Source of the DNA: a virus
Strand: one strand, 5' to 3'
DNA length: 26,530 nucleotides
IMG/VR virus record: IMGVR_UViG_3300005939_000484
Coordinates: 1-26,530 of that record
A program made the translations under genes and the position numbers. The notes below the pieces were generated by a model. The model made no database searches. It was not told the origin of the DNA and saw only the letters and a list, made by a program, of their open reading frames with translations. Below, in pieces: positions 1-26,530 of the stretch (position 1 is the first letter of the stretch; every line of letters begins with the position of its first letter).

Positions 1-1519
1 TTAATATCTCTTTACATTTTACACTCTTATCTTGGTTCATTTTGAATCCTTGAGCATTAAATCTAGTTCTAGTTTCTTGGCTTAAACCACCATACATATT
101 AAGTCTTTCATTAAACATTCCAGCTTTGAAGAAGTCTTTCTTTCTTATCCATGCAAAGTTCTCAATAAATGCTTTCTTTGTAGATTCTTTACCCTTAATA
201 ACCTTTACACCAAAGTCAAAGTGGTTATTCTTACATTTAGATATATGTTCTAGTGCATCAGGTTCAAGTGCATATCTATCATCTAAAAATAGAAGTACCT
301 CACCTAGTGCTTCACATGCTCCCATGTTCCTAGCTTGAGCCAATCCATAGTAGTCATTAGCATTGCCAGTATTCATATAAATAACTGGTGTCTTAAGGTG
401 TTTCTTTATCTCTTCACATACTTTCTTTGTCTTACCTCCATCATCACCATCTTCAACTATAATAATCTCTTTAGCAGGATAAGTTTGACTATCAATAGAT
501 TCAATTATGTCATATAGCTTTTCTGCTCTATCAAATGTTGGGATAATAACAGAGATAACAGGATTATCTTTGAATACAGTCTTGTAATAAACCTTTGCAT
601 AATCTCTAGCCATCTTTGATTCACTATAGTTCTTTATAGTCTCCCAAGCATTCTTTCTAATCTTTTCTCTTAACTTCTTATCTTCCATGACAAGTTGAAG
701 CTTCTCTTCAAAGTTTTCTTCATTAAAGAATACTCCATTCACTCCATCTTTAATCAAATCTCTAGCCATACCCTGTTCTGTAGCTAAAATAGGAACTCCA
801 CTCGCCATTGCTTCTAGTAAAGGTAATGTTCCTGATTCTTTTTCACCAGTAGAATACATGACAAAACACATCATATCTTCATATAAGTCGTCTTTAAACG
901 ATGCTGAAGCCATTTCAGCCCTGCAAGTACCACCATTAAACTCTAATCTATCCCTTGGTATCTCTTCCCAATACTTAACATCATCAATATATCCTGATCC
1001 AACTACATTATATTCGAACTTATTAGCTGCTTCACATATCTCTTTTAGGCATTTCCAAGGTACTACTCTACCGATATACCCTATATTCTTGTTTTCTGTT
1101 AGCTCATCAATGTAAGCAAACCTATCTAAATCAATTCCATGAGGTATTTTAAACACATTTTCGTGTATCTTACTTAACTTATCTACTCCCCATTGTGTCA
1201 TTTCATTCAAAGAGTTAAAGTCTTCCCAAGTGTCCTTGTTTAAACAATGATGGTTGTGATGAGTTAATAGGCTTGTCTGCTTTCTTAAATGAGGGAAGTA
1301 ATCAAACATCTTTAGCGAACTGTTCCAATATTGTCCATGCCAAAGATCAACTCCTTTAACATCTATCGCATCTTTTAAAGGAATTAATGATTCTCCAACT
1401 CCCCTAGGATGTACTGGAACTTTAATAAAATTAAACCTATTCTTGTTGTGCTTGATAATGGCATCAGTTAGGTTTCCAATAGCCCAACCTTCCACGTCAT
1501 TTGTTATTAGAATACGCAT
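1..1519 (-). CDS. Two-domain glycosyltransferase (GT4-like + GT2-like), 3' end cut by window
   Basis: The frame starts at ATG 1519 (MRILITNDVEGW) and stays open to the window edge, about 505 codons, so the C-terminus is missing. The first part looks like a GT4-type GT-B retaining transferase: it has NIGYIGRVVPWK and an EX7E-type segment, KESGTLPLLEAMASG, followed by GVPILAT. The second part begins PVISVIIPTFDRAEKL and continues with EIIIVEDGDDGG and LLFLDDRY, the nucleotide-binding start and metal-binding acidic motif of a GT-A (GT2) domain. A bifunctional enzyme adding two sugars in sequence to a glycan is the natural inference. It is the last visible gene of the glycan cluster and lies one base after a tiny ORF. 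The acceptor is unknown. The fold calls are fairly safe; sugar specificity cannot be read. Confidence 0.85.
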   Translation of the reverse strand, partial: MRILITNDVEGWAIGNLTDAIIKHNKNRFNFIKVPVHPRGVGESLIPLKDAIDVKGVDLWHGQYWNSSLKMFDYFPHLRKQTSLLTHHNHHCLNKDTWEDFNSLNEMTQWGVDKLSKIHENVFKIPHGIDLDRFAYIDELTENKNIGYIGRVVPWKCLKEICEAANKFEYNVVGSGYIDDVKYWEEIPRDRLEFNGGTCRAEMASASFKDDLYEDMMCFVMYSTGEKESGTLPLLEAMASGVPILATEQGMARDLIKDGVNGVFFNEENFEEKLQLVMEDKKLREKIRKNAWETIKNYSESKMARDYAKVYYKTVFKDNPVISVIIPTFDRAEKLYDIIESIDSQTYPAKEIIIVEDGDDGGKTKKVCEEIKKHLKTPVIYMNTGNANDYYGLAQARNMGACEALGEVLLFLDDRYALEPDALEHISKCKNNHFDFGVKVIKGKESTKKAFIENFAWIRKKDFFKAGMFNERLNMYGGLSQETRTRFNAQGFKMNQDKSVKCKEIL

Positions 1520-1520
1520 A

Positions 1521-1577
1521 TTATTTTAAATTATTTATTAAATACTCATGTTTCACTGGTGTTATTAATACTCTCAT
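1521..1577 (-). CDS. 18-residue micro-ORF bridging two glycan genes
   Basis: The peptide is MRVLITPVKHEYLINNLK. Its ATG overlaps the TGA stop of the upstream methyltransferase (ATGA), and its TAA ends one base before the ATG of the next glycosyltransferase. The first residues resemble the start of that glycosyltransferase (MRILIT), so it may be the remnant of a duplicated gene start. It could also be a real micropeptide or a translational coupling device. There is no ribosome binding site beyond the overlap. Chance is a serious alternative in AT-rich DNA. Confidence 0.3.
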   Translation of the reverse strand: MRVLITPVKHEYLINNLK

Positions 1578-2173
1578 AATGTTATTAAATAATTTTTAGC
1601 TATTCTTTCCATAAAATCTGTCTCACAATTATCAAAGTATTTCTCGTGATGATGACAAAAAGTTCCACCATGACTATCACTACCTACATTTACTGTATGC
1701 TTATCTGGATAGATTGGTCTAAATGGTTCACTCAAGAAAATAACCTTTTTAGCTACCCTCTTTAGTTCATCTCTTACTTTATCAATATCATAGTAAGCAA
1801 TATGGCATAAACACTCACTTGTATATACTAAATCGAACTCATTGTCCTTATATGGTAATCCTTCTACTATATTTACCTTTCTTAACTCTGCTTTAGGGCA
1901 TCTTTCTTGCAAAATATCCAAAGCTTCTCGGCTTATATCACATCCTTCTATGTGTCTTTTAGGAAAATGCTTGAATAAAGGCTCTAATATCCTGCCATTA
2001 TTACAACCAACTTCAAGTGCTGTCTTAAAATTAATCTTCTTTAATGCGTCTAATGCGAACTTTCTTTGTATAACATAAGGATTTTTGCCAGATTGTTTCA
2101 ATCTTCTATCAAGATCAATAGCATATTCGCCACCTGTTTTCTCCCATGTTTCTGTGTTTGTTATTTTTCCCAT
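1574..2173 (-). CDS. Class I SAM-dependent methyltransferase
   Basis: This 199-residue protein has the Rossmann methyltransferase signature: motif I ALEVGCNNG at residues 52-60, an acidic residue after strand 2 (EGCDIS, D79) and the post-I region NEFDLVYTSECLCHI. The likely role is to methylate a sugar or a glycan-linked acceptor, inferred from the surrounding glycosyltransferases and deacetylase. The N-terminus, MGKITNTETW followed by EKTGGEYAID, is almost identical to that of the neighbouring methyltransferase-like gene, after which the two diverge. The start ATG overlaps the upstream TAA by one base (TAATG). The C-terminus contains a His-rich stretch, GTFCHHHEKYF. The substrate is unknown. 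Confidence 0.8.
   Translation of the reverse strand: MGKITNTETWEKTGGEYAIDLDRRLKQSGKNPYVIQRKFALDALKKINFKTALEVGCNNGRILEPLFKHFPKRHIEGCDISREALDILQERCPKAELRKVNIVEGLPYKDNEFDLVYTSECLCHIAYYDIDKVRDELKRVAKKVIFLSEPFRPIYPDKHTVNVGSDSHGGTFCHHHEKYFDNCETDFMERIAKNYLITL
2114..2173 (-). repeat. 60-base 5' gene tag, copy A
   Basis: The first 60 bases of this methyltransferase gene match the first 60 bases of the neighbouring one (2779-2838) with only three substitutions, and the 37 bases at the inner end are identical. Similarity drops abruptly beyond it. The block encodes MGxITNTxTW then EKTGGEYAID. Confidence 0.9.
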
Positions 2174-2838
2174 TACTTTTTTATTTTTAATAATATATTA
2201 AAGCTGTTTTCTTGATTCTTCTCTTTCCATAGCTTAACTAAATCAAACTTATCTTTATCTAATGACTTATCAATGTCTTTCTCATCAAAAGAGTATATAT
2301 CACATTCTGTAATCAATCCTTTACTTAAGGTTAGAAGCATATATCCCCTTGAGTGCATTATTCTATACCATTCGTCTAGTGTATCTTTTAACAAGTAAGC
2401 ATGATCTAAACTATTGCTATAAAGAAAGTCAAACTTATCCTCCCACTCATCAGGTAATTCATTAAAGTCTAATTGATGAAACTTTAGCTTATCATCTCCT
2501 TTAGCAGTCTTAACTAATTCGCTTAATTCAACTCCATGTATTTCTGCTTCGCAATAAAATCTATTCTTTTTAAATTCAAAACATTCAGCACCATTTTTTA
2601 CTCCCATACAAACTATCCTTTTTAGTTTTGGTAATTTTTCTCCTGCTGTGTTTGCTATTTTCTTAAACATTTCTAATCTATCTGGTTGTTCTAAAAAAGT
2701 ACCTTGCTTTGATTTAACTCTAGCAAGTTGTGATTCTATATATTCGTCGTACGAAACTAAATTATATCTTTTCATATAATCAATAGCATATTCGCCACCT
2801 GTTTTCTCCCATGTTGCTGTATTTGTTATTTCTCCCAT
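2173..2838 (-). CDS. Methyltransferase-like protein, twin of the downstream gene
   Basis: This 221-residue protein opens with the same tag as the downstream methyltransferase (MGEITNTATW, EKTGGEYAID). A degenerate SAM-binding core follows: RIVCMGVKNGAECFEF in the motif I position, then EIHGVELSE and KFDFLYSNSLDHAYLLKDTLDEW, which matches the motif IV/post-motif region of class I methyltransferases. The C-terminal half reads GYMLLTLSKG, like the usual strand 5 region. The glycine motif is weaker than in the twin, so catalytic activity is less certain. It belongs to the glycan operon; spacing to the next gene is a TAATG overlap. It could also be a non-catalytic partner of the twin. Confidence 0.65.
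   Translation of the reverse strand: MGEITNTATWEKTGGEYAIDYMKRYNLVSYDEYIESQLARVKSKQGTFLEQPDRLEMFKKIANTAGEKLPKLKRIVCMGVKNGAECFEFKKNRFYCEAEIHGVELSELVKTAKGDDKLKFHQLDFNELPDEWEDKFDFLYSNSLDHAYLLKDTLDEWYRIMHSRGYMLLTLSKGLITECDIYSFDEKDIDKSLDKDKFDLVKLWKEKNQENSFNILLKIKK
2779..2838 (-). repeat. 60-base 5' gene tag, copy B
   Basis: This is the partner of the block at 2114-2173, with 57 of 60 bases identical. Two of the three substitutions change an amino acid (K/E at residue 3, E/A at residue 8). The shared block includes the start codon and ends within codon 20. Confidence 0.9.
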
Positions 2839-2839
2839 A

Positions 2840-3130
2840 TTATTCTTTTATCTTATTGATTTTTTCTTCAAGAAATTCTTTTGTCTCATCAAAAGATGGG
2901 TTTATATTTATTCTTTGACAGTTATTGTTTGTCTCCTCTTCAAATTTATCCAACTTATATAACATCTCATCAAGGCATTTCTCTATTGATTGTTTTATGA
3001 AGTCTTTAGTTTCCTTCTCTGAATCGTATTTTTTACCATGCAAAGCTCTATAACCAATATCAGCTATTAGCTTATCAAACTCCTCAAGTATTTTGCTTAT
3101 GTTATTTGTCATCTTTTTTTTATTAATCAT
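2840..3130 (-). CDS. Small hypothetical coiled-coil protein
   Basis: This is a 96-residue, strongly charged protein rich in Lys and Glu, with long predicted helices (SKILEEFDKLIADIGYRALHG and KCLDEMLYKLDKFEEE) and no catalytic motif that I recognise. The first ATG (3130) overlaps the upstream gene by eight bases; a second ATG at 3112 (MTNNISKIL) is a possible start. It sits between a glycosyltransferase pair and the twin methyltransferases, so it may be a structural partner of the glycan enzymes, but that is only context. Function unknown. Confidence 0.6.
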   Translation of the reverse strand: MINKKKMTNNISKILEEFDKLIADIGYRALHGKKYDSEKETKDFIKQSIEKCLDEMLYKLDKFEEETNNNCQRININPSFDETKEFLEEKINKIKE

Positions 3131-3407
3131 CTAAATTAAAAGGTTTATAAATTTTCCTACATCTTTTTGATATAGTATTTAAATAAATCCGTGTAAGGTT
3201 TGAATATACAGTTTCTCCATTATTAACATCTTTAGCTTGTTTTATAATCTTTTCCAATGTACTAATTCCAATTTCAGCAAACATCATACTTATAGTATCT
3301 TTCTTATTACCATAACCAGTCATTTTAAGAATACAGAATAAATCCATGAAGCCACCAAACAAGTATCTTTTTAGAGTATAAATAAAATAACTATTAAAAA
3401 TCTTCAT
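3123..3407 (-). CDS. Small hypothetical protein
   Basis: This 94-residue protein has an aromatic and hydrophobic N-terminus (SYFIYTLKRYLFGGFMDLFCILKM) followed by a polar basic half ending KRCRKIYKPFNLDD. The N-terminal stretch is too interrupted by charges to call a clear membrane helix. The ATG overlaps the TGA stop of the upstream glycosyltransferase (ATGA), which supports translation. An internal ATG at MDLFCIL is an alternative start. Function unknown. Confidence 0.55.
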   Translation of the reverse strand: MKIFNSYFIYTLKRYLFGGFMDLFCILKMTGYGNKKDTISMMFAEIGISTLEKIIKQAKDVNNGETVYSNLTRIYLNTISKRCRKIYKPFNLDD

Positions 3408-4285
3408 AGTATTCCTTCAAAATTATTCCAGTTGTTATACCCCATCTGATCTTCTGTCATATTCTTTACCTTATCTCTTACAAATTTAGGATGATCGTCT
3501 AATGATAAAGGCTTATAAGTAGCTCCAGTCTTCTTTAATCTACTAGCAGACATCTCACAAAACTTCTTTAAAGCTTCTTCTTTAGTCTTACCCCAAGTTG
3601 CACCAAACCCTGCTTTATCTCTAGAATGACTGAATCTCAAGAACTGTTCACCTGTTATCTTCTTATCCTTGAAGAAGTTATCATAATTCCAGCAATCTAC
3701 ACCAGTTGATCTAACTACACTAGGATCTATTGACCTTCCTTTAGGTAATCCTAACTCATCATCAAACTCGTCTCTATGAATAGGGTATCCCCAAGCTGTA
3801 TTCTCTGTTGTTGATGGGCCATAGCCTACTGTATCTCCTAACATCTTCTTATTCAAAATGAATGGTAGATGAACCTTCTGATAAGCTCTATCTTTATTCA
3901 TTATTGTATATTTCATAAAAGAACATGCTAACCAACCCTCTTCTAAATACTTCTCGAGCTGTGTTCTCATATTCTTAATATCGTTCTCATGGAATACATA
4001 ATCACAATCAGTCTTCATTACCCAATCACCAGTACATAGTGAATAGCCTAGATTATTGTGCCTACTTATCTCATCCCAACTAAAATTATAAGGCCATTCA
4101 AGATAAGCCCATTTTAATTCCTTTCCATGTGGTACATCTATGTTCTGTAATAACCTCAAGTCTGTTTCAGAACCATAAATTACTATTACTTCATCAGCCA
4201 ATGCCAAGAATGATTCAATAGATTCTTTCCATGCGTATTGCCAGTAGTCTGGATTAGTTATTGTTGTGTGTATGCTTAATTTCAT
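3404..4285 (-). CDS. GT-A fold glycosyltransferase (GT2-like)
   Basis: This 293-residue protein begins MKLSIHTTITNPDYW, resembling the first strand of a nucleotide-sugar binding GT-A domain. It continues ALADEVIVIYGSETD and carries a DxD metal-binding motif at D93-C94-D95 (VMKTDCDYVF), preceded by a GDWVM strand typical of the family. The C-terminal half contains GVDCWNYDNFF and FLRFSHSRDKAGFGATWG, which look like acceptor-site loops; no membrane anchor is visible. It is coupled to both neighbours by ATGA overlaps, so it is firmly part of the glycan operon. It most likely transfers a sugar from a nucleotide donor. Donor and acceptor cannot be named. Confidence 0.8.
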   Translation of the reverse strand: MKLSIHTTITNPDYWQYAWKESIESFLALADEVIVIYGSETDLRLLQNIDVPHGKELKWAYLEWPYNFSWDEISRHNNLGYSLCTGDWVMKTDCDYVFHENDIKNMRTQLEKYLEEGWLACSFMKYTIMNKDRAYQKVHLPFILNKKMLGDTVGYGPSTTENTAWGYPIHRDEFDDELGLPKGRSIDPSVVRSTGVDCWNYDNFFKDKKITGEQFLRFSHSRDKAGFGATWGKTKEEALKKFCEMSASRLKKTGATYKPLSLDDHPKFVRDKVKNMTEDQMGYNNWNNFEGIL

Positions 4286-4848
4286 CTTTTTATAGCTTTA
4301 ATTATAAATCCTGTTACATTTGAATCTCCTCCAACGTGCATTCCATCTGACTTATAGAAATCTCTTAACTTTTCAGGGTCTTTTGCTACTCTATCCATAA
4401 TCATTTCTATCTCAAATCCAGCATTTTCTAGTAATTTAATAGCTCCCATCCTTGTATATCGTAGATAATCATTCTTAACAGGCTTATGGATACAATAAAC
4501 AAAAGGGAAAGATATGTATAGTTCTCCACCTTTCCTTAAAAACCCACATACAATACTTAAAGCATTAACAGGATCGTATATATATTCCATTACTTCTAGG
4601 CAGAATGCTATGTCAAAAGTCTCATATAAATCTTTTCTAATGCCACTCTTCTCATTTATATCCCACACTATATCTGATTTTTCTCCCTCATGAGGAACTT
4701 CTAAATCTAATGTTATATATTCTTTTACATCCCAACCTTTTGTTCTATCAAATACTTTTTTTTGACTAGAACCAATATCAAGAACACTATCTGCTTTAAT
4801 TTCAAGCCTAGCAATAAAGTCTGTTAATTGTTCACTATAATAACTCAT
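4282..4848 (-). CDS. Class I SAM-dependent methyltransferase
   Basis: This 188-residue protein has a clear motif I, VLDIGSS at residues 22-28, then EYITLDLEVPHEG for the ribose-binding acidic region, and FDIAFCLEVMEYIYDP with LRKGGELYISFPF, the usual strand 4 and 5 layout of small-molecule or glycan methyltransferases. The C-terminal part (YLRYTRMGAIKLLENAGFEI) matches the Methyltransf_11-type arrangement. It overlaps the downstream glycosyltransferase by ATGA and follows a structured 70-base gap. It is unrelated in its N-terminus to the twin methyltransferases further downstream. Function in sugar methylation is inferred from context. Confidence 0.8.
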   Translation of the reverse strand: MSYYSEQLTDFIARLEIKADSVLDIGSSQKKVFDRTKGWDVKEYITLDLEVPHEGEKSDIVWDINEKSGIRKDLYETFDIAFCLEVMEYIYDPVNALSIVCGFLRKGGELYISFPFVYCIHKPVKNDYLRYTRMGAIKLLENAGFEIEMIMDRVAKDPEKLRDFYKSDGMHVGGDSNVTGFIIKAIKR

Positions 4849-4853
4849 AATTT

Positions 4854-4907
4854 TTAAAATTGCGGGGGATTTGCAATACAGCTGGGGTCAGGTAACTCCC
4901 ATTTCAT
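4854..4907 (-). CDS. 17-residue micro-ORF with a Shine-Dalgarno-like leader
   Basis: The peptide is MKWELPDPSCIANPPQF. A purine run AGGGGG sits six bases before the ATG, one of only two good ribosome-binding-site candidates I see in the window. The ORF begins 10 bases after the upstream glycosyltransferase stop and its TAA lies five bases before the methyltransferase ATG. Its base composition is visibly richer in G and C than its neighbours, and it lies inside an inverted repeat. I do not recognise the peptide. It may be a real micropeptide, a coupling ORF, or just part of a structured element. Confidence 0.4.
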   Translation of the reverse strand: MKWELPDPSCIANPPQF

Positions 4908-4919
4908 GTGATTCCCCCT
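4864..4919 (-). repeat. GC-rich inverted repeat enclosing the micro-ORF
   Basis: GGGGGA (4919-4914 on the minus strand) can pair with TCCCCC (4869-4864), closing a loop of 44 bases that contains a second possible stem, TGGG/CCCA. If it forms in the mRNA, it would trap the Shine-Dalgarno-like run of the 17-residue ORF. It is not a terminator, because no T-tract follows. Confidence 0.5.
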
Positions 4920-5778
4920 AAAGAACTAATTTTTTGAATACCTCCATATACTCGTCTGCCATCACTTGGATGGTCTTAACTCCATTCAGATTCTTTTTGT
5001 ACAGTTCAAGACTGCCACCTTCGGAGTTAAGATATAGAGGTTTCATTCCACAAGCCATAGCCTCTAACAAAGTGTTAGGGTATGCCTCACAGAATGAAGG
5101 ATACAATAAATAATCGCACTTTCTCATTAATTCAGCCACTTCTTTTGGCTCATTCTTTATACCAACATATTCAATATCAGCAGGAATAGGTAAATCCCAG
5201 TCATATTCTGGGTGTTCTTTGTAGATTCTAGGCGCATCACCAGCAATTATAAGCTTAATTCCATTGTTTTTACGCCATTCCATGTCAAATCTATACAATG
5301 CTTCATCAAATCGCTTGTTAGGATTATCGTTATAATTGATGTATAAATAGGTCTTTTCGCCTGTTTCTCTACCTTTTTCATTGAATATAGATGTATCTAC
5401 GCCATTGTTAATAATATATTCTTTCTTATTGTCTATAAAATAACCAGCATAATACTTACACCATTCTCCTTGATATATAACAGCGTCAGCTAGGTTACCA
5501 AACTCTTTTAATCTAGCAACAGGAGACTGTCTTTTATTCCTTGATTTTCTAGGTATATTATCAACCCTTAAAACAAGCTTCTTACCAGATGAAAGAGCAT
5601 TATAAATCTCTCCTTTGTCTATTGTGGTTATACCGAATACAAAATATATATCACATTCTTTCCAATTATCAACTATCTCTACTTTCCCTTCTAATCCTTT
5701 TAATAAATTACGAAGAAAAGTCCAACCTCCACCAATGCTTGTGTTGCTAAAGTTTGATATATATAATTTAATCTTCAT
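4918..5778 (-). CDS. GT-B glycosyltransferase, family 4 type
   Basis: This 286-residue protein begins MKIKLYISNF with a glycine-rich loop SIGGGWTFLRNLL, as in the N-terminal Rossmann domain of GT4 enzymes. The centre has IINNGVDTSIFN, the usual linker motif before the donor domain, then IKLIIAGD and YVGIKNEPKEVAELMRKCDYLLYPS. The EX7E motif is present (E231 to E239 in CEAYPNTLLEAMACG). It probably transfers a sugar from a nucleotide donor with retention. It overlaps the NodB-type gene upstream by a few bases. The protein is shorter than typical GT4 enzymes (about 350-400 residues), mainly in the N-terminal half. Substrates unknown. Confidence 0.85.
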   Translation of the reverse strand: MKIKLYISNFSNTSIGGGWTFLRNLLKGLEGKVEIVDNWKECDIYFVFGITTIDKGEIYNALSSGKKLVLRVDNIPRKSRNKRQSPVARLKEFGNLADAVIYQGEWCKYYAGYFIDNKKEYIINNGVDTSIFNEKGRETGEKTYLYINYNDNPNKRFDEALYRFDMEWRKNNGIKLIIAGDAPRIYKEHPEYDWDLPIPADIEYVGIKNEPKEVAELMRKCDYLLYPSFCEAYPNTLLEAMACGMKPLYLNSEGGSLELYKKNLNGVKTIQVMADEYMEVFKKLVL

Positions 5779-6403
5779 AACTCTTAATAAATTTAAATAA
5801 TTCTTCTAACTCATCCCACAAACCATACTTTTCTATTTCCCAACTATGTCCCCATAAATGGAAATATTCTGTTTCTGGATCTTTCCAAACTTCTTTAGCT
5901 ACTTCCAACCAATTCTTTCCATTGTATTCTTTCCTACTAGGATGAACATGTATTGTTGGCTTGATAGCATAATTATCTTTTGGTAGTTTATTATTTAAAA
6001 CATCAACTGTTCTTGCTTCCCTAAACTTACATTTCTTTACCATTGCTTTTACATCCTCATTATATCTTCCTTTAGGATAGCAAAATGAATCTAGTGTTTG
6101 TCTATAAAGACCTCTCCTTAAAACTCTTTTACCTTCTCTGATTTCAGCAATAGCAACTTCTGGTGATACTTTAGATAATTCTACATGTGTATTTGTATGA
6201 CCACCTATCTCAAATAATCTATCATAGGATAGCTTTGATATTACAGTTGGTTTCATTACTTCTCTTTCTGGATTATTTGGAGCAATAAAGAATGTTCCAG
6301 TAAAAGTATATTTTTTTAATAATTCAGCTATTCTTAAATCTAGTGGGTGTCCATCATCCCAACTGGTAGTAAAATAAATATTCCCTATCTTTTTATAGAT
6401 CAT
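5768..6403 (-). CDS. NodB-type polysaccharide deacetylase
   Basis: Counting from ATG 6403 this is 211 residues. The carbohydrate esterase 4 motifs are visible: SWDDG with D16 and D17 (catalytic base and metal ligand), the metal-binding H69-x3-H73 in GGHTNTH, and CYPKGRYN at 108-115 in the place of the RxPY motif. A late histidine motif, HLWGHSWEIE, lies at 182-191. The family removes N- or O-acetyl groups from sugars using a divalent metal. No signal peptide is seen, so it should act on an intracellular glycan intermediate, which suits the adjoining glycosyltransferases. The upstream in-frame TTG (6412) would add three residues; ATG is preferred. Confidence 0.85.
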   Translation of the reverse strand: MIYKKIGNIYFTTSWDDGHPLDLRIAELLKKYTFTGTFFIAPNNPEREVMKPTVISKLSYDRLFEIGGHTNTHVELSKVSPEVAIAEIREGKRVLRRGLYRQTLDSFCYPKGRYNEDVKAMVKKCKFREARTVDVLNNKLPKDNYAIKPTIHVHPSRKEYNGKNWLEVAKEVWKDPETEYFHLWGHSWEIEKYGLWDELEELFKFIKSYED

Positions 6404-6692
6404 TGTTTTCAATAATTTTTACAACCTCTTGCATATTCTCTCTATCTTCTCTTGACTGTAAATACTTTGTATTCAAATCAAGTGATTTATTTACATATCT
6501 ATCATAAATATCAGTAGCCTTCTTTTGGTCATCAGTTAACTTATCGTTGCCATAACACTTTGGCTTTTTAACCTTACCTAAATCTTTTAATTTGTTCTCA
6601 AATAATAACTCATTAACTCTATGTGCTACACAAGATTTTCTTGCTCCCATTAATGAATCTTTAATTGCTTTCTTAAATCCTTTATCTAACAT
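6393..6692 (-). CDS. Hypothetical protein, 99 residues
   Basis: This is a basic, mostly helical protein (MLDKGFKKAIKDSLMGARKS at the start; DRENMQEVVKIIENNDL at the end). No motif that I recognise. It follows the previous small gene directly (ATG 6692 abutting the upstream stop at 6693) and overlaps the deacetylase start. Together with the next two genes it forms a trio of short charged proteins between the terminase and the glycan cluster, where phages often keep small structural or scaffolding-type proteins. No function can be given. Confidence 0.6.
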   Translation of the reverse strand: MLDKGFKKAIKDSLMGARKSCVAHRVNELLFENKLKDLGKVKKPKCYGNDKLTDDQKKATDIYDRYVNKSLDLNTKYLQSREDRENMQEVVKIIENNDL

Positions 6693-7407: not shown

Positions 7408-8769
7408 TTAATAAACAAATGGTAAATTAGATTCTCCAAATGTTAAGAAGAAAGCATCTGCATAATCAGGAGATTTACCTGTTCTTTTCTTTAAATCAGC
7501 TTTTGGTTCTATCTTCATTAACTTCTCTGTATTAACCTTATACTTAATCCAATTAAGCTGATTAAAGCCATCATCTCTCACAATCTTACCACCTTCTTTT
7601 AACCATGTTCTTGCTTTCCATGATACCTCTGCTTTGATATTAGAATACTTATCATTTTCAGTAGCTGAACCACCAACTGATACTCCACTAACAGGATGTC
7701 CCATTTCAATAAGTCTGTCTGTAACACCTCTGCCAATTCCTATATCATCTATGAATACATCTTGGGGTGTTATATTATATTCCTTTATCAATCTTACAAT
7801 CTCTGTAACATTGGTCATTGTATCATTAGACTTGTTTGAACTCTCTATCCATGCACATTTACCATTTCTCAAGACATAAACATTCTTATCTCCACCACCA
7901 CCTACATCAACTCCTAGTCTTAAGTTATCCCCATCTGTCTTCTTATCAACATATCTATCAATCAGTAAGTCCATAGGAATAAGTGTTCTATAACCTCTAG
8001 CATCTATCTCGTCTTCATTAGGGAATTTACACTCATAATAGACCTCCCAATTAGCTTCACCCTTCATTTCTTCCATGAATGTCTCATCAAAACCATGATA
8101 ACCGTCTTGGCTATCCTGTAAACTATCTAAATAAGTATGTCTTATCTGGTGATACCTGTTAGATATAGAGCTTTTATGGAAGTGATTTCTATAGAAAGGA
8201 TTACCAATCTTTAACAGAAAGGTATCTTTATACTTACCAGCACCACCAAGCATACGCATAACAGTTGACCATATAGGATCATCAATAAGCCCTGCTTCAT
8301 CAGCTATAATATTCTTTGCACCAAATCCCATAGCAGCTTCCATTGAGGCTCTACTATTCCTAGCATCTAAAGTAAGTGTCTGAACTCCTCCACCACCTTT
8401 GAATGTGATGTGTTTCTTACTCCTTTCTCTTCTTAAACTGTCTAACTTCTCGTTCTTATCTAATAACAACTTGTCAGATAATATAGGGTTTTGTGTAACA
8501 AAATCAATAACATAAGCCATGATAATATCAGCTTTCTTTTGTGAAGGTGCTAGTATCGTGAATTTCTCTTTATATATTGCTGCTCTACATGCTACCGCTG
8601 CTCCAATAGTTAAACTCTTACCATCCTGTGTTGGAGCTATTACATTAGTTCTGGGATACTTTCTCTTATATATAATATCAAATAATTCTCTAAACCTTGG
8701 TGGTATTATCAGGGGCTTGTTCTCCAGTTTGAACAGTATCTCCGCTGCTTTGTACGTCCTTGTCTTCAT
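7408..8769 (-). CDS. terL: Terminase large subunit
   Basis: This 453-residue protein is the DNA-packaging motor: an ATPase that drives DNA into the prohead and a nuclease that cuts it. The ATPase domain has a Walker A variant APTQDGKS (45-52), Walker B NIIADEA (153-159) and a coupling motif LLKIGNP near 185. The RNase H-like nuclease domain shows the acidic set D288 (LRLGVDVGGGG), D341/D342 (VFIDDIG) and D435/D438 (SPDYADAFF). Length is normal for the family. The ATG lies inside the small terminase gene, an 80-base overlap that implies coupled translation. Portal and capsid genes do not follow, which is unusual. The identification is very secure. Confidence 0.95.
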   Translation of the reverse strand: MKTRTYKAAEILFKLENKPLIIPPRFRELFDIIYKRKYPRTNVIAPTQDGKSLTIGAAVACRAAIYKEKFTILAPSQKKADIIMAYVIDFVTQNPILSDKLLLDKNEKLDSLRRERSKKHITFKGGGGVQTLTLDARNSRASMEAAMGFGAKNIIADEAGLIDDPIWSTVMRMLGGAGKYKDTFLLKIGNPFYRNHFHKSSISNRYHQIRHTYLDSLQDSQDGYHGFDETFMEEMKGEANWEVYYECKFPNEDEIDARGYRTLIPMDLLIDRYVDKKTDGDNLRLGVDVGGGGDKNVYVLRNGKCAWIESSNKSNDTMTNVTEIVRLIKEYNITPQDVFIDDIGIGRGVTDRLIEMGHPVSGVSVGGSATENDKYSNIKAEVSWKARTWLKEGGKIVRDDGFNQLNWIKYKVNTEKLMKIEPKADLKKRTGKSPDYADAFFLTFGESNLPFVY

Positions 8770-9076
8770 TACCTAATTCTTTTAATGATTTCAATGCCTC
8801 TTCCACCCTATCATCCTGTATAGTGCTTTCGATCTTATCTGGGTATATCTTCTTAAAAAACTCTAGCATTACCTTTTCATTACCTTCCATAGCCTTTAAC
8901 AGTAACCTTGTCTTTATTGAGAACTTTCCTGATTCTATCTGTTTAATTAGGTCTTCTTCATCCTGATCCTCAAAAAACATTTTAGCCAAAAACTCTGCAT
9001 CCATCTTTTCTTGATACATTGATTTCCTTCCACTTTTTCCTTTCACTCCATGAAAATTCTCTGGTACTGATCCCAT
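8690..9076 (-). CDS. terS: Terminase small subunit (probable)
   Basis: This is a 128-residue protein directly before and overlapping the large terminase. The N-terminus has GVKGKSGRKSMYQEK, a glycine/lysine-rich segment common at the start of phage small terminases, followed by helices (DAEFLAKMFFEDQDEEDLIKQI) and SIKTRLLLKAMEGNEKVMLEFFKKIYPDK, which resembles the oligomerisation region of this family. It should recognise the packaging site and load the large subunit. The acidic C-terminal tail is low complexity. The call rests mainly on position and the N-terminal motif. Confidence 0.75.
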   Translation of the reverse strand: MGSVPENFHGVKGKSGRKSMYQEKMDAEFLAKMFFEDQDEEDLIKQIESGKFSIKTRLLLKAMEGNEKVMLEFFKKIYPDKIESTIQDDRVEEALKSLKELGNEDKDVQSSGDTVQTGEQAPDNTTKV

Positions 9077-9116
9077 AGTATTATTACTTACTTAATTACC
9101 TAACTTTAGCCAAGTC

Positions 9117-9130
9117 TATGTGTCGTAAAA
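9117..9130 (-). repeat. Repeated motif TTTTACGACRCATA, copy 1
   Basis: The minus strand reads TTTTACGACACATA immediately after the stop of the coiled-coil gene and about 40 bases before the small terminase start. It is identical to the copy at 11205-11218 and differs by one base from the copy at 9575-9588. Confidence 0.5.
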
Positions 9131-9466
9131 TTAACACATATTCCTTAATTCATCACTCTTTACTGTCAGCATCTTCTTAAGGCTTCTGATTGATTCCATT
9201 ACTGCCTTGTATATATATTTTGCCTGTTCTAGTTCTTTGTATTGATCTGTTTGTTTAATCTTATTATCAGCCTGTTTGTCAGAATCTGTTAGTTCTCTTA
9301 TTTCATCCCATTTAAAGCTGTATGCCTGTTCTTTCTCTATGATATGTTTGCCTACTACATCTATTCTGGCTGAAAGTAAACATAGATACTCTGATAATTG
9401 AGCTGGAGTTAATATGGACAACTTCTCCACATCCCTTAATTCAACTATTATTTCACTTATATTCAT
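9131..9466 (-). CDS. Hypothetical coiled-coil protein at the head of the terminase operon
   Basis: This 111-residue protein is mostly helical, with a charged coiled-coil-like stretch in the middle (SDKQADNKIKQTDQYKELEQAKY) and a basic end. It has no catalytic motif. It lies first in the operon that contains both terminase genes, a place often used for packaging helpers or DNA-binding proteins; that is only context. Its ATG follows directly on the T-tract of an intrinsic terminator, with no Shine-Dalgarno sequence, so it can be expressed only when transcription passes the terminator. No later ATG would leave a sensible protein, so the start is kept. Confidence 0.7.
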   Translation of the reverse strand: MNISEIIVELRDVEKLSILTPAQLSEYLCLLSARIDVVGKHIIEKEQAYSFKWDEIRELTDSDKQADNKIKQTDQYKELEQAKYIYKAVMESIRSLKKMLTVKSDELRNMC

Positions 9467-9492
9467 AAAAAAACAACGCTAAAATTGCGTTG
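9467..9492 (-). terminator. Intrinsic terminator touching the terminase-operon start codon
   Basis: On the minus strand CAACGC (9492-9487), a seven-base loop and GCGTTG (9479-9474) form a perfect six-base-pair stem, followed at once by seven T (9473-9467) and then the ATG at 9466. It is a textbook rho-independent terminator placed upstream of a gene rather than after one. Confidence 0.8.
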
Positions 9493-9494
9493 GA

Positions 9495-9527
9495 TTAGAT
9501 TATTAATCTTTTGTTTCCTCTCTTCAT
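9495..9527 (-). CDS. Possible 10-residue leader peptide
   Basis: The peptide MKRGNKRLII begins at the position where transcription from the 9534-9561 promoter is expected to start and stops three bases before the terminator stem. This fits a leaderless leader peptide in an attenuator. It is very short and highly basic; chance cannot be excluded. Confidence 0.3.
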   Translation of the reverse strand: MKRGNKRLII

Positions 9528-9533
9528 GTACTT

Positions 9534-9561
9534 ATTCTATCATATAGAAATAGTTTGTCAA
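9534..9561 (-). promoter_or_regulatory. Strong sigma70-type promoter of the terminase operon
   Basis: TTGACA (9561-9556, perfect consensus), a 16-base spacer ending in TGA (extended -10), and TAGAAT (9539-9534, five of six). It reads toward the terminase operon but meets the terminator about 40 bases after the expected start near 9527, so read-through should be controlled. Confidence 0.8.
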
Positions 9562-9574
9562 CTCTATTCTTACG

Positions 9575-9588
9575 TTTTACGACGCATA
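9575..9588 (+). repeat. Repeated motif TTTTACGACRCATA, copy 2
   Basis: The plus strand reads TTTTACGACGCATA, inverted relative to the other two copies, and lies 14 bases upstream of the -35 of the terminase-operon promoter. It forms part of an imperfect palindrome, CTTACG...CGCATAAG (9569-9590). This is a sensible operator position. Confidence 0.5.
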
Positions 9589-9663
9589 AGGTATTCCCCT
9601 CTATACTCTTATTGTATTATATAAGCGTTAAAAAGATTTTTTTATGTATTAATAAGATTCGAT

Positions 9664-9814
9664 TTATCAAGTTATCAACAAGTAAGAGACCTAGTTGTCA
9701 GGGGACGACATTGCTAGGTTTTATATCTGGCGACAACCTGTCCTTAACGCATACTCGGAATTAAGTTAGATTGGCTTGATTTAGATTATCCAGTAAAATC
9801 AAGGGTAAAACTGG
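9664..9814. other. Gene-free structured region with inverted repeats and DnaA-like sequence
   Basis: No credible ORF lies here. TTATCAACA at 9672-9680 is one base from the DnaA box consensus, preceded by TTATCAAG at 9664. ACCTAG (9689-9694) and CTAGGT (9714-9719) form a hairpin with an inner TGTC/GACA stem. GTTGTC (9694-9699) can instead pair with GACAAC (9732-9737). CTTGATTT (9775-9782) pairs with AAATCAAG (9796-9803), and CCAGT (9790-9794) with ACTGG (9810-9814). The competing pairings suggest a regulatory RNA or an origin. The stretch 9589-9663 is AT-rich and shows nothing certain. Confidence 0.45.
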
Positions 9815-9835
9815 CCTTATTAAATTGTAGCGAAT

Positions 9836-9910
9836 ACAAAAGAGGTCCACATTCCCGAAGACCTCTTGTGTACACTGAATAAATTTAAATGTATTGCTGT
9901 GAAGGAATGT
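9836..9910 (-). ncRNA. Candidate short RNA from promoter to terminator
   Basis: A near-consensus promoter at 9917-9945 should start RNA near 9910, and a hairpin with a short U-run ends it near 9838, giving about 75 bases with no ORF. The 5' end carries ACATTCC, which is complementary to GGAATGT in the loop of the terminal hairpin, so the ends may interact. No known RNA family is recognised. Confidence 0.4.
9840..9867 (-). terminator. Intrinsic terminator-like hairpin
   Basis: AAGAGGTC (minus strand, 9867-9860) pairs perfectly with GACCTCTT (9847-9840) around a 12-base loop, extended by ACA/TGT after one mismatch. The T-run is short (four T at 9841-9838), so termination may be partial. It also lies downstream of the cytosine methyltransferase gene. 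Confidence 0.6.
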
Positions 9911-9916
9911 ACTTAC

Positions 9917-9945
9917 ATGATAGACTACTTTTTTATATCTGTCAA
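9917..9945 (-). promoter_or_regulatory. Near-consensus sigma70 promoter
   Basis: TTGACA (9945-9940, six of six), a 17-base spacer and TATCAT (9922-9917, five of six). It begins just after the stop codon of the cytosine methyltransferase and points into the gene-free control region. It is the best match to consensus in the window. Confidence 0.75.
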
Positions 9946-9949
9946 GTAG

Positions 9950-10567
9950 TTAGAATAAATTCTTTTGTTTCTGTTTTCCCATAGCACAATCTAACACATG
10001 CTTTCCTACTTCTGGCTCAACACAATTTCTTAAAACTTGCCTTTTGTTTTTCAGTTTATAATTTGACAAATCAAACCCATATTTCTCTTGCAAGTCTGGT
10101 ATTTGTGCTGTTCTGATATTGTCTTTCTTGAATTCTCTAATTGGTATTTCAAAGTTTGACCAGAATAAATGCCTTTGCAATATGACTGATGGTCCAATCA
10201 ATGTCTTATAATATGGTTTTACATTTTCTACAACCCACTTACAGTCAGCGTGATGCTGTAGGAATAATATCTCTTGATACAGTGTCATATCTGGATAAAC
10301 CGGTTCTGTACCACGATACCTAACACAAATATTTTTTCTAAAACTTGAGTGACTTTGGCAAGGTGGGCTACTCCAAATAAAATCAAACTCCTTGTAGTGT
10401 TCTAATATGTATTGATGAGCGTCTGCAACAATGACTTTATCTTTTGGAAATAGATCACTATATATTTTTGCTATATCTGGATCATTTTCAATAGCAGTCA
10501 CTTGATATTTGTTTCCCCAGGGCTTTCTATTACCGCCTATCCCTGAATAAGCATTTAAGATACGCAT
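9950..10567 (-). CDS. DNA cytosine-5 methyltransferase, short form
   Basis: This 205-residue protein has C5-MTase motif I (NAYSGIGGN, 5-13), an acidic strand 2 end (IENDPDIA), motif IV SPPCQ with catalytic C70, motif VI ENV (114-116) and RHLFW (132-136) in the motif VIII position. The end, EPEVGKHVLDCAM, resembles motif X. It would transfer a methyl group from SAM to cytosine in DNA, probably shielding phage DNA from host nucleases. Typical enzymes exceed 300 residues; the target-recognition region here is very small, so specificity may be low or need a partner. The HNH gene upstream ends inside its first codons. Confidence 0.85.
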   Translation of the reverse strand: MRILNAYSGIGGNRKPWGNKYQVTAIENDPDIAKIYSDLFPKDKVIVADAHQYILEHYKEFDFIWSSPPCQSHSSFRKNICVRYRGTEPVYPDMTLYQEILFLQHHADCKWVVENVKPYYKTLIGPSVILQRHLFWSNFEIPIREFKKDNIRTAQIPDLQEKYGFDLSNYKLKNKRQVLRNCVEPEVGKHVLDCAMGKQKQKNLF

Positions 10568-11111: not shown

Positions 11112-11312
11112 TTATTCATTAAATTTTAATATCTCACTACCTCTTATTAAAAAGTAGTTCTTTTTTGTTGAACAATAGTCTTTTGCGCTAATATTACCTA
11201 ATTTTATGTGTCGTAAAATAAAATAGTAATCAGGATTGCCTTTAGAATTAACTATCCAGCCATTGTCTGCTATGTCTTTTGGTTTGTAATACTTGTCCTT
11301 TTTTAATTGCAT
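11112..11312 (-). CDS. Small helix-turn-helix, excisionase-like protein
   Basis: This 66-residue protein reads YYKPKDIADNGWIVNSKGNPDY in the first half, fitting a MerR/excisionase-type helix-turn-helix where the PKDIA helix is followed by a turn and the DYYFILRHIKLG recognition helix, then a beta-hairpin (SAKDYCSTKKNYFLIRGSEIL). Such proteins bind DNA as small regulators or recombination directionality factors. No integrase is in the window. The gene is preceded by a structured 95-base leader that could regulate it. The HTH call is moderate. Confidence 0.6.
   Translation of the reverse strand: MQLKKDKYYKPKDIADNGWIVNSKGNPDYYFILRHIKLGNISAKDYCSTKKNYFLIRGSEILKFNE
11205..11218 (-). repeat. Repeated motif TTTTACGACRCATA, copy 3
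   Basis: The minus strand reads TTTTACGACACATA inside the HTH gene, where it encodes part of the ILRHIK helix. TTAGGTAAT follows it both here and, at a greater distance, after copy 1, so copy 1 may be a fossil of this gene rather than an operator. Confidence 0.45.
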
Positions 11313-11407: not shown

Positions 11408-11779
11408 CTAATCGTCTTTTGATATATTTAATTGAGCTATTTTCTTATTAAATCTCCTGATTGCTTCCTCCTTTTTCAGCGTACTATTTGCTTTCCTCCT
11501 TAATCTATTGTATCTTTCCTCTCCTAACTGTTTTATTTTAAAGTCTCTGTACCATCCTTGCTTCTCTCCTTCTGACCTCATATGACAGCCAGTACATAAA
11601 GCATCAGCATTATCTTCATCAAACCTTACAGCCCAATTACCTCTTCCCCAAAAATGTGAACATTCAAGTCCTCTAGCTGGTGGGTAGTATTTAGTAGTAC
11701 ATTTCTGACAAGTCCATTTATCTCTATCCCTTATGTATTTACTAAATATTGTATCTTCTTTTAGTATCTTTATTCTCAT
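11408..11779 (-). CDS. NinG/Rap-like HNH recombination protein
   Basis: This 123-residue protein has a CxxC pair (C24, C27), then LECSHFWGRGNWAVRFDEDNADALCTGCH, giving H42, N57, C62 and C65. The H-x3-R...RFDEDN...CxxCH layout is that of lambda NinG (Rap) and related HNH proteins, which act on branched recombination intermediates. A basic helical C-terminus follows (RYNRLRRKANSTLKKEEAIRRFNKK). It is joined to the upstream PD-(D/E)XK nuclease by an ATGA overlap, suggesting that the two work together in phage recombination or DNA processing. Confidence 0.7.
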   Translation of the reverse strand: MRIKILKEDTIFSKYIRDRDKWTCQKCTTKYYPPARGLECSHFWGRGNWAVRFDEDNADALCTGCHMRSEGEKQGWYRDFKIKQLGEERYNRLRRKANSTLKKEEAIRRFNKKIAQLNISKDD

Positions 11780-13728: not shown

Positions 13729-14244
13729 TTATAACTCCCCAACATCTTTCAATATTCTTTTAGCATTTTCAATAGTTTCCTTTGAATATAATTCTGTCTT
13801 ATCTAAATCTAATTCAATGCCAGTTATTCCTTCAACAACTCCTTTATCAAATTCAGGTATTTTAGATATTTCAATCCATTGTTTTCTGGTTACTTTTTTC
13901 CATTCATCTGACCAAGATTCTTCGTTTAGTTCTAATTTTAAATCTTCTAATATTTTTCTTAATTCACCTAAAATTTCATCATATCTTTCTTCTGAAACTT
14001 TTTTATTAAAAGCCATATGGTTTTTCTGATAACCAATTCCTTTACTTTTATGTCTTCCTTCTCCAAGACAAAATATCATTTTTTCTGACATTCTTAATCC
14101 TTTAGAGTAATAGCAGTAATAGCAGGAATCGCAGGAATAGCAGGAATCGCAGTAATTGCAGTAATAGCAGTAATTGCAGTAATTGCAGGAATAGCAGGAA
14201 TTGCAATCTTTTAAATTTTCTGAATTTTCGTTTGTGTCTTTCAT
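13729..14244 (-). CDS. Cysteine-triplet repeat protein
   Basis: In this 171-residue protein, residues 14-44 carry 11 cysteines spaced exactly every third residue, with N, Y, S or D between (for example CNSCYSCNYC). Then comes KGLRMSEKMIFCLGEGRHKSKGIGYQKNHMAFNKK and a helical C-terminal half. I have a loose memory of similar cysteine-triplet proteins in uncharacterised phage genes, but know no function. The strict period suggests a metal cluster array, a metallothionein-like buffer, or a narrow solenoid with a cysteine ladder. It lies between an SSB-like gene with a small membrane protein and the lysozyme-like gene. No Shine-Dalgarno sequence. Confidence 0.75.
   Translation of the reverse strand: MKDTNENSENLKDCNSCYSCNYCNYCYYCNYCDSCYSCDSCYYCYYSKGLRMSEKMIFCLGEGRHKSKGIGYQKNHMAFNKKVSEERYDEILGELRKILEDLKLELNEESWSDEWKKVTRKQWIEISKIPEFDKGVVEGITGIELDLDKTELYSKETIENAKRILKDVGEL
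14113..14202 (-). repeat. Ten tandem 9-base units encoding C-x-x
   Basis: Ten complete units of the form GCAG(T/G)AAT(A/C/T) on the plus strand, with the cysteine codon TGC invariant on the coding strand. Unit number can change by slippage without breaking the frame, so repeat length may vary between relatives. Confidence 0.9.
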
Positions 14245-15573: not shown

Positions 15574-15582
15574 TGTGGATAA
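15574..15582 (-). promoter_or_regulatory. Consensus DnaA box
   Basis: The minus strand reads TTATCCACA, the exact bacterial DnaA box, nine bases upstream of the -35 of the accessory promoter. A single box may regulate the promoter or mark an origin. Confidence 0.5.
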
Positions 15583-15587
15583 CTTTA

Positions 15588-15619
15588 ATAAAACAAAAGA
15601 AAACCGCTAATACTAGCGG
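15588..15619 (-). terminator. Intrinsic terminator after the lysis cassette
   Basis: CCGCTA (15619-15614), tetraloop GTAT and TAGCGG (15609-15604), followed on the minus strand by a T-rich tract interrupted by single C and G (15603-15588). It ends the tail-lysis transcription unit. Confidence 0.8.
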
Positions 15620-15642: not shown

Positions 15643-15828
15643 TTATTTCTTCTTTTTAATGTCTCTGTAACCTTTAATGGCATTGGATAGATTGTAAACT
15701 CCAATAGTTCCACCTAGAACTGTTAGGACTTCCCATCCAATAGCTTTGTCGAATACCCAGAAATCTAGGCATACAATAATTACGAATAGCAAAGTTAAAA
15801 TAAACTTTCTACTAAATAACTTACTCAT
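15643..15828 (-). CDS. Small holin-like membrane protein
   Basis: This 61-residue protein has two hydrophobic segments, FILTLLFVIIVCLDFWVF and WEVLTVLGGTIGVYNLSNAI, and a charged C-terminus (GYRDIKKKK), typical of small class II holins that open the membrane to let the endolysin out. It lies directly after the M23 endopeptidase and before a terminator. The two-helix topology and position are the evidence; no specific holin family is recognised. Confidence 0.65.
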   Translation of the reverse strand: MSKLFSRKFILTLLFVIIVCLDFWVFDKAIGWEVLTVLGGTIGVYNLSNAIKGYRDIKKKK

Positions 15829-26528: not shown

Positions 26529-26530
26529 CT

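Follow-up and report, generated by a model that had tools for sequence, protein, structure and literature searches.

The stretch of viral DNA analysed here (the window) comprises the 26,530 nucleotides of IMG/VR record IMGVR_UViG_3300005939_000484. A sister record, G002, was used to extend the map: it leaves the window at base 1, crosses 8980 further bases and re-enters at window base 26530, so that the map, which is circularly permuted, closes at about 35.5 kb. All assigned genes lie on one strand of this closed map (names were given by eye, except for TerL, capsid, portal and the early genes with family matches). The late operon runs in the order gene 1, probable TerS, TerL, sugar-modifying genes, portal, protease, capsid, tail and lysis region. 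It is followed by a terminator at 15619–15604 and then by an early block, from 15497 to 9950, that encodes small proteins, HNH nucleases, a NinG/Rap-like protein and a C-5 methylase. The early block is followed by a gap of 483 nt, longer than any other in the window, which contains a promoter (P1), a structured stretch, and a second promoter (P2) with its terminator. The map thus agrees with the first-pass annotation, which had placed the P2 unit at the door of the terminase operon: it sits where the early genes meet the terminase-first late operon. Searches for relatives of gene 1 retrieved only two near-identical sister contigs.

Table 1. Features at and around the junction of early and late genes (window coordinates)
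Feature	Position	Strand	Basis or remark
Large terminase subunit (TerL)	7408–8769	-	phrog_2, E 8.4e-26
Probable small terminase subunit (TerS)	8690–9076	-	inferred from its location and its overlap with TerL; no family match
First gene of late operon (gene 1), 111 aa	9131–9466	-	no family match
T7 tract, directly 5' of ATG 9466	9467–9473	-	base-level check
Terminator hairpin CAACGC-AATTTTA-GCGTTG	9474–9492	-	6 bp, -6.5 kcal/mol
Leader mini-ORF MKRGNKRLII*	9495–9527	-	ATG at predicted +1, stop 2 nt 5' of hairpin; predicted translation only
Promoter P2, TTGACA-16-TAGAAT, extended -10 TG-A-TAGAAT	9534–9561	-	11/12 matches
P2 -10 hexamer TAGAAT	9539–9534	-	base-level check
P2 -35 TTGACA	9561–9556	-	base-level check
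Non-coding stretch between P1 and P2, 350 nt	9562–9911	-	more structure than shuffles: z -2.54, 1/100 as stable
Weak terminator-like hairpin GAGGTC...GACCTC TTTTG	9842–9865	-	51 nt past P1 -10, d = -4.4
Promoter P1, TTGACA-17-TATCAT, near-consensus	9917–9945	-	promoter scan
C-5 cytosine methylase-like, last early gene before control region	9950–10567	-	family match
66-aa early protein, candidate regulator	11112–11312	-	DNA-binding-like by eye; no family match
NinG/Rap-like HNH nuclease, early block	11408–11779	-	family match
Terminator, late operon far end, after gene 15643–15828	15604–15619	-	d score scan

As listed in Table 1, the unit of P2, terminator and ATG lies on the minus strand of the window, the strand being a detail that the earlier description did not give. 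That description, a near-consensus promoter some 40 bases 5' of a T7 terminator abutting an ATG, was confirmed base by base for all elements, the spacing from the P2 -10 to the hairpin being 41 nt. If transcription starts at about 9527, as predicted from a distance of 7 nt past the -10, the leader measures 61 nt, in line with the approximately 60 bases first proposed, and the ORF for the suggested peptide MKRGNKRLII is present. When the leader was folded together with the T tract, its first nine nucleotides paired with that tract (MFE -11.3, z -1.76, 11 of 200 shuffles as stable).

Terminators were scanned with d'Aubenton Carafa's score d. Three coding-strand terminators in the window had d > 0, namely 15619–15604, 23681–23643 (inside the tape-measure gene) and 9492–9474, so the only other intergenic one marks the far end of the late operon. 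In the remaining 8980 bases of the genome, the coding strand had none with d > 0. In 2000 dinucleotide shuffles of a 500-nt region, a terminator as strong as 9492–9474 arose once, promoters with at least 11/12 matches averaged 0.011 per shuffle, and a promoter and a terminator within 60 nt of each other never occurred. Shuffling the window coding strand 60 times likewise gave no terminator this strong and no promoter–terminator pair. Promoters alone are less telling: three with at least 11/12 matches occur in the coding strand, whose shuffles gave a mean of 1.18 and a maximum of 3, and the opposite strand has none. A simple scanner returned eight terminator-like sites in a half-window against 4.0 expected, which is weak evidence.

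P1 and P2 share TAAGTACAT just past the -10; when 14-nt pieces were paired at random, 14 of 20000 pairs had a 9-mer in common. The stretch between the two promoters is possibly a cis-acting RNA. Since P2 starts downstream of it, only transcripts from P1 or from further upstream would carry it. Rfam gave no match at gathering score in the window; a search of 9440–9960 returned three matches far below gathering scores, at chance level, and one of 11 relatives returned a single weak tRNA match. A conserved non-coding RNA was also sought through a 15-nt core of 9562–9911 and was rejected: 31 contigs carried the core, two of them being the sisters, and the other 29 had no similar surroundings by eye. 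These 29, sharing that core only, served as our control set of unrelated phages.

Some further sequence elements were noted in and around this gap. By eye, 9562–9911 contains crossing helices (GGUUGUC/GACAACU and ACCUAG/CUAGGU) that might form a pseudoknot. The repeat TATGYGTCGTAAAA occurs in three exact copies, at 9117–9130 (+), 9575–9588 (-) and 11205–11218 (+). Two of these fall within a 35-nt stretch that is 80% alike (9100–9134 and 11188–11222) and one lies inside the HTH-like gene 11112–11312, so that a shared coding ancestry is possible; the repeat may be an operator or a shared coding remnant. DnaA-box-like sequences, TTATCAACA at 9672–9680 (+) and TTATCCACA at about 15574–15582 (-), lie near both control regions.

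Relatives were gathered by TerL and portal searches. The first TerL scan returned the two near-identical contigs plus three loci of 45–46% identity, and the last search supplied the best 80 of 256 relatives, among which the closest, L059, has a TerL 60% identical to that of the window. The resulting 88 loci (again with the last search represented by its best 80 of 256) contained 42 intergenic coding-strand terminators. After addition of the window and removal of redundancy, 74 of 89 loci were kept, with 34 such terminators; the 15 dropped loci include L037, L119, L120 and L122. Loci L116, L061 and L089 belong to the 74, with leaders that did not score as terminators (none found, d -30.7 and d -50.3, respectively; the long stem of L116 has mismatches by eye), while L043, L042 and L039 lie outside the set.

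We defined the full layout as a promoter 5–80 nt 5' of an intergenic terminator, followed within 30 nt by the ATG of an ORF of at least 60 aa. A promoter stood in the upstream position at 10 of the 34 terminators, with about one expected from promoter density (binomial p 5e-8), and in the mirrored downstream position at three; a suitable ATG followed 14. The full layout was found at nine: L059, L066, L084, L003, L114, L117, L123, L055 and the window, which thus conforms to the definition for its TerL group. Two more loci, L028 and L124, have the terminator and the ATG with no promoter at threshold. On the antisense strand of the 74 loci there were eight terminators, one with an ATG and none with an upstream promoter, and local shuffles of these loci gave no promoter–terminator pair.

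Both control sets were scanned on both strands. The 29 unrelated viral contigs held 24 terminators, of which none had a promoter, one had an ATG and 0/24 the full layout; 18 host pieces held 23, two with a promoter, one with an ATG and 0/23 with both. By Fisher's test the full layout was enriched with p 0.0078 against host DNA, 0.0074 against phages and 0.0002 against both (0.0005 without the window), figures to be read in the light of layout thresholds chosen after sight of the window sequence and of viral controls with a G+C content of 0.48 versus 0.39 and half the promoter density. The promoter-then-terminator order alone gave p 0.10 against host DNA, which is not significant, and 0.003 against the two controls together. 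At these thresholds 65 of the 74 loci lack the full layout, and most of them do hold sequence next to TerL (more than 600 nt downstream in 72 of 73 loci, more than 1500 nt upstream in 55 of 73). The unit of P2, terminator and ATG is real and is not unique to the contig of the window; its anatomy, its position and its recurrence in some relatives are directly observed.

The gene behind these leaders encodes the portal protein in L059, L084, L116, L117, L124 and L061 (by PHROG match) and in L003 (by homology), a head protease in L114 and the major head protein in L123; the gene behind the L028 terminator had no PHROG match. In L055 and L066, as in the window, the unit precedes the first small gene of the terminase operon. 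The order in L055 is HNH genes, a 77-aa ORF, promoter, terminator, the ATG of a 101-aa gene, a 50-aa ORF, probable TerS and TerL; its TerL is 39% identical to that of the window, its gene order is similar, and by eye its HNH gene preceding the unit resembles the NinG/Rap-like gene of the window. Homology between gene 1 and the 101-aa gene in the same place was considered and dropped, no similarity being found. The leaders of the relatives are unlike each other, and neither the window leader nor gene 1 has intermediate homologues. As the two sister contigs are near-identical, they offer no covariation for the window's own hairpin.

The position at the junction, together with recurrence before head or terminase operons of some diverged relatives and absence from two control sets, fits late genes being held off by premature termination. 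On this basis we propose, with a probability of roughly 0.55, that the unit would act as an off-by-default switch heading the late operon and needing regulated read-through. Host RNA polymerase would start at P2 and by default stop at the hairpin and T7 tract, releasing a short RNA of some 60 nt. The terminase-first operon, which takes up about 29 kb of the 35.5 kb, would be transcribed only if the polymerase were carried or let through the terminator. From the sequence arrangement we infer termination itself, the regulated character of the read-through, and two states marking early and late infection.

The hairpin is modest, at 6 bp and -6.5 kcal/mol, so read-through could be high without any factor. 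It might then be simply the terminator of the early operon, a constant brake, with late transcription supplied by P2, P1 and early transcripts that leak past it without regulation or antitermination. This would account for the fact that from the early genes (15497 to 9950) as far as 9474 the coding strand has no other terminator with d of at least 0, for the leak to be expected of such a stem, for our finding no antiterminator, and for most relatives lacking the layout. However, a near-consensus promoter immediately 5' of the terminator is not required at a plain boundary, the opposite order is the rarer one in the TerL group (three versus 10 of 34), and relatives share the abutment of terminator and start codon. 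We regard a constant brake as rather unlikely.

The isrK locus of prophage Gifsy-1, as outlined in PMC4825925, is likewise a promoter–terminator unit that gives a short RNA and a read-through mRNA, and there the short RNA acts in trans. By analogy, P2 and the terminator could make up a small-RNA gene in their own right, some 60 nt long, with the late genes transcribed from another promoter, and such a unit would yield abundant short RNA like the short form of IsrK. Against this, no other promoter with at least 11/12 matches lies between 9466 and the end of TerL (one with 10/12 is inside TerL at 8122), the abutment to the start codon recurs, and the relatives' leaders are unlike each other, which makes a dedicated small-RNA gene very unlikely in our judgement.

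Under the preferred reading of a switch at the level of transcription, a hairpin that stays folded in the read-through RNA may also impede translation, given that only 7 nt separate the stem from the AUG and that this phage seldom uses Shine–Dalgarno motifs. Such motifs preceded one of 21 long window ORFs, two of 11 in L010 and five of 73 in nine relatives (four of the five in L066), as compared with 22 of 135 in host pieces and 46 of 114 in unrelated phage contigs. One could go further and suppose that translation or mRNA stability is the main target of the hairpin and that termination is incidental. In all 13 leaders measured the stem ends 7–25 nt from the AUG, few starts have Shine–Dalgarno motifs, the portal leader of the window phage (L010) has a promoter (TTGACA-17-TACAAT at L010:2097), a hairpin without T tract and an ATG, and L042 has a hairpin before the portal ATG with neither T tract nor detected promoter. 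Nevertheless, in 11 of the 13 leaders the stem is followed by at least six consecutive T (L066 has four, and in L061 the run starts after TA), a feature that translation control does not need. We consider it highly improbable that termination is incidental.

The mini-ORF raises another way of passing the terminator, namely ribosome-mediated attenuation, in which a ribosome at the MKRGNKRLII stop would cover the 5' arm of the hairpin and let the polymerase pass. An ATG mini-ORF ends 1–4 nt before the hairpin in three of 13 leaders (window, L059 and L055; 0.61 expected, p 0.02), and an ATG stands at the predicted RNA start in four of 13 (0.83 expected, p 0.008), both tests having been suggested by the data and conceived after looking. 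On the other hand, six of the 13 leaders (L003, L037, L089, L116, L123 and L114) have no ATG mini-ORF of at least four codons, the peptides of different phages are not alike, and mutually exclusive terminator and antiterminator hairpins were not found in the window leader, where no helix of the 20 nt upstream with the 5' arm of the terminator beat shuffles (p 0.40). Attenuation by a translating ribosome may still apply, with a low probability.

In some portal leaders a competing hairpin was found. Those of L003, L037, L089/L039, L059 and L116 can form a 5–7-bp hairpin, closed by G-C and with a purine pentaloop (AAGAA or AGAAA), that uses the 5' arm of the terminator. Although the bases differ between phages, the 5' strand of this hairpin is in each case identical to the 3' arm of the terminator (TAACGG/TAACGG, TAGCGG/TAGCGG, TAACAG/TAACAG, CACTG/CACTG and ATCCTTG/ATCCTTG). 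A pattern written after sight of some leaders, G-C closure and purine loop included, matched four times on the coding strand of the 74 loci and once on the antisense strand (apparently by chance), compared with 0.2 matches per shuffled set on both strands; it was absent from the 29 control contigs. A separate pattern search for more L003-type leaders gave none beyond contigs already in the set. When leaders were tested singly, L116 being left out of this test, the alternative helix was modestly better than in shuffles in five of 17: L003 (0.0135), L037 (0.039), L089 (0.0385), L059 (0.05) and L043 (0.01). As L003, L037 and L089 are related phages, these results are not independent. The other 12, both window leaders included, gave p of at least 0.23. 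The pattern is absent from the window leader and from L010, so that this kind of RNA switch is unsupported in the window.

The LicT/BglG–RAT and lambda N–boxB systems are RNA-binding antiterminator systems with competing hairpins. The leaders of L003, L037, L089, L116 and L059 are alike in that their hairpin excludes the terminator, and its size and loop recall boxB; they differ from the window leader, where the hairpin is absent, and no N- or LicT-like protein was noticed. The put site of phage HK022 and EAR are cis-acting RNA antiterminators, structured RNAs that let polymerase pass terminators in their own transcript. Another, canT, is found in the mobile element Tn916, as outlined in PMC11658703. 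The 350 nt that separate P1 from P2 could be a structured RNA of this kind, transcribed ahead of terminators in a mobile element, but differ in having no Rfam match.

In phage lambda, late genes lie beyond an intrinsic terminator until a phage protein acts (outlined in PMC4604602). Similarly, protein P7 of phage Xp10 lets host polymerase pass intrinsic terminators before late genes (outlined in PMC6624301), and the late genes here also sit beyond an intrinsic terminator. The first-pass annotation had likened the unit to the hold on late genes at lambda pR'–tR'. The likeness stood as regards position and recurring order: a strong sigma-70-type promoter lies between early and late genes, and the RNA would end at a nearby intrinsic terminator. 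The Q-family protein and the pause element, by contrast, were not found, the leader is only 61 nt and the terminator touches the start codon. Searches with PF06530 and PF03589, the Q-family models, gave no hit at E ≤ 1 in four records (window, two sisters and L059), and an antiterminator PHROG was matched by none of the 18 window proteins scanned, which included the products of 14 of the 16 listed early genes, in agreement with the earlier remark that no lambda Q-like protein is recognised in the window. No -10-like pause hexamer (A2 and T6) occurs in the 24 nt past the P2 -10. Judged from these searches, membership in the lambda Q family fails on both protein and pause element, although a Q of unrelated sequence may be encoded.

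The agent of read-through may be an early protein, a leader peptide or a structured RNA upstream; if the unit is a switch, it would most likely be an early phage protein acting on the polymerase or the nascent RNA. A candidate next to the portal leaders is A4, a small protein with a YGKLEV-like core that follows TerL in 14 aligned loci (16–39% identical to the first row). The portal gene comes next or close by in the 12 loci checked (all but L081 and L104); in L124 another ORF lies between the two. The window phage has its own A4 at L010:1922–2095. The predicted fold is beta-beta-alpha-beta-beta. Identification of A4 as a known RNA binder was not upheld, as the AlphaFold model (mean pLDDT 82) had no match at E ≤ 0.001 in PDB or BFVD, and Pfam gave only one weak DUF2292 match among five members. 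Elsewhere, a Com-like zinc ribbon is encoded 5' of the L028 terminator (PF10122, E 0.004, below cut-off) and, by eye, a zinc-ribbon-like protein 5' of the L117/L122 leader.

As for the host, a scan of cellular genome contigs with a three-sequence TerL alignment gave no loci, and one with a 19-sequence alignment gave five in bacterial and archaeal genomes. Four were in Patescibacteria bins (Daviesbacteria, Woesebacteria and two unplaced) and one in a Pacearchaeota bin. The phage therefore probably infects Patescibacteria, an indirect attribution because bins can be wrong and these TerL relatives are just 37–53% identical.

Putting these elements together, one may imagine, as a tentative and on the whole unlikely scenario, a lineage of Patescibacteria phages that would use a compact RNA switch (promoter, leader of about 60–120 nt, terminator abutting the start codon) on late or head operons. 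In the portal branch, the terminator would be blocked by a G-ARRAA-C hairpin to which a dedicated small phage protein binds, such as the YGKLEV-type protein encoded just upstream. In the window phage, the 350-nt RNA made from P1 would let the polymerase through in cis, P2 alone would give only the short RNA, and a promoter switch would turn the late genes on.

A literature search, mostly outside subscription journals, gave no account of transcription timing in Patescibacteria phages and no description of the promoter–terminator–ATG layout in them. The words 'terminator', 'promoter' and 'antitermination' do not occur in the main text of PMC12911398, PMC10746230 and PMC13059738, which deal with such phages; the last mentions late-gene timing there only through suppressor tRNAs. 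The recurrent unit is a short, testable control point with diverged natural versions and with candidates for its regulator. Should it prove to be operated by an early phage protein or RNA, it would represent an antitermination system from a bacterial branch with little molecular genetics.

A few minor observations concern the genes and leaders around these units. Directly behind the unit of L066, the ORF at L066:6980–7267 is sigma-70 region-4-like (PF08281, E 5.9e-6, scanned as L020:4983–5267) and is possibly a self-regulator of the terminase operon. The TerL of the Pacearchaeota-binned locus (L055:6870–9251) seems, by eye, to carry an intein-like insertion at the Walker A motif. The leader at L117:7160–7267 has three copies of CUUACGAG, two of which cap hairpins in the predicted fold, the second hairpin being the terminator. 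Upstream of the portal promoter in L003 and L025 we noted, by eye, the DnaA-box-like sequences TTATGAACA and TTATTAACA. In the window, a block of genes at 1–6412 (-) separates TerL from portal; by eye these are glycosyltransferase-, methyltransferase- and deacetylase-like. Genes similar to this block sit upstream of TerS instead in L003 and L005. Finally, the early protein encoded at 13729–14244 (-) contains a run of C-Y/N/D-x-C repeats arising from 9-nt tandem repeats (14088–14223).
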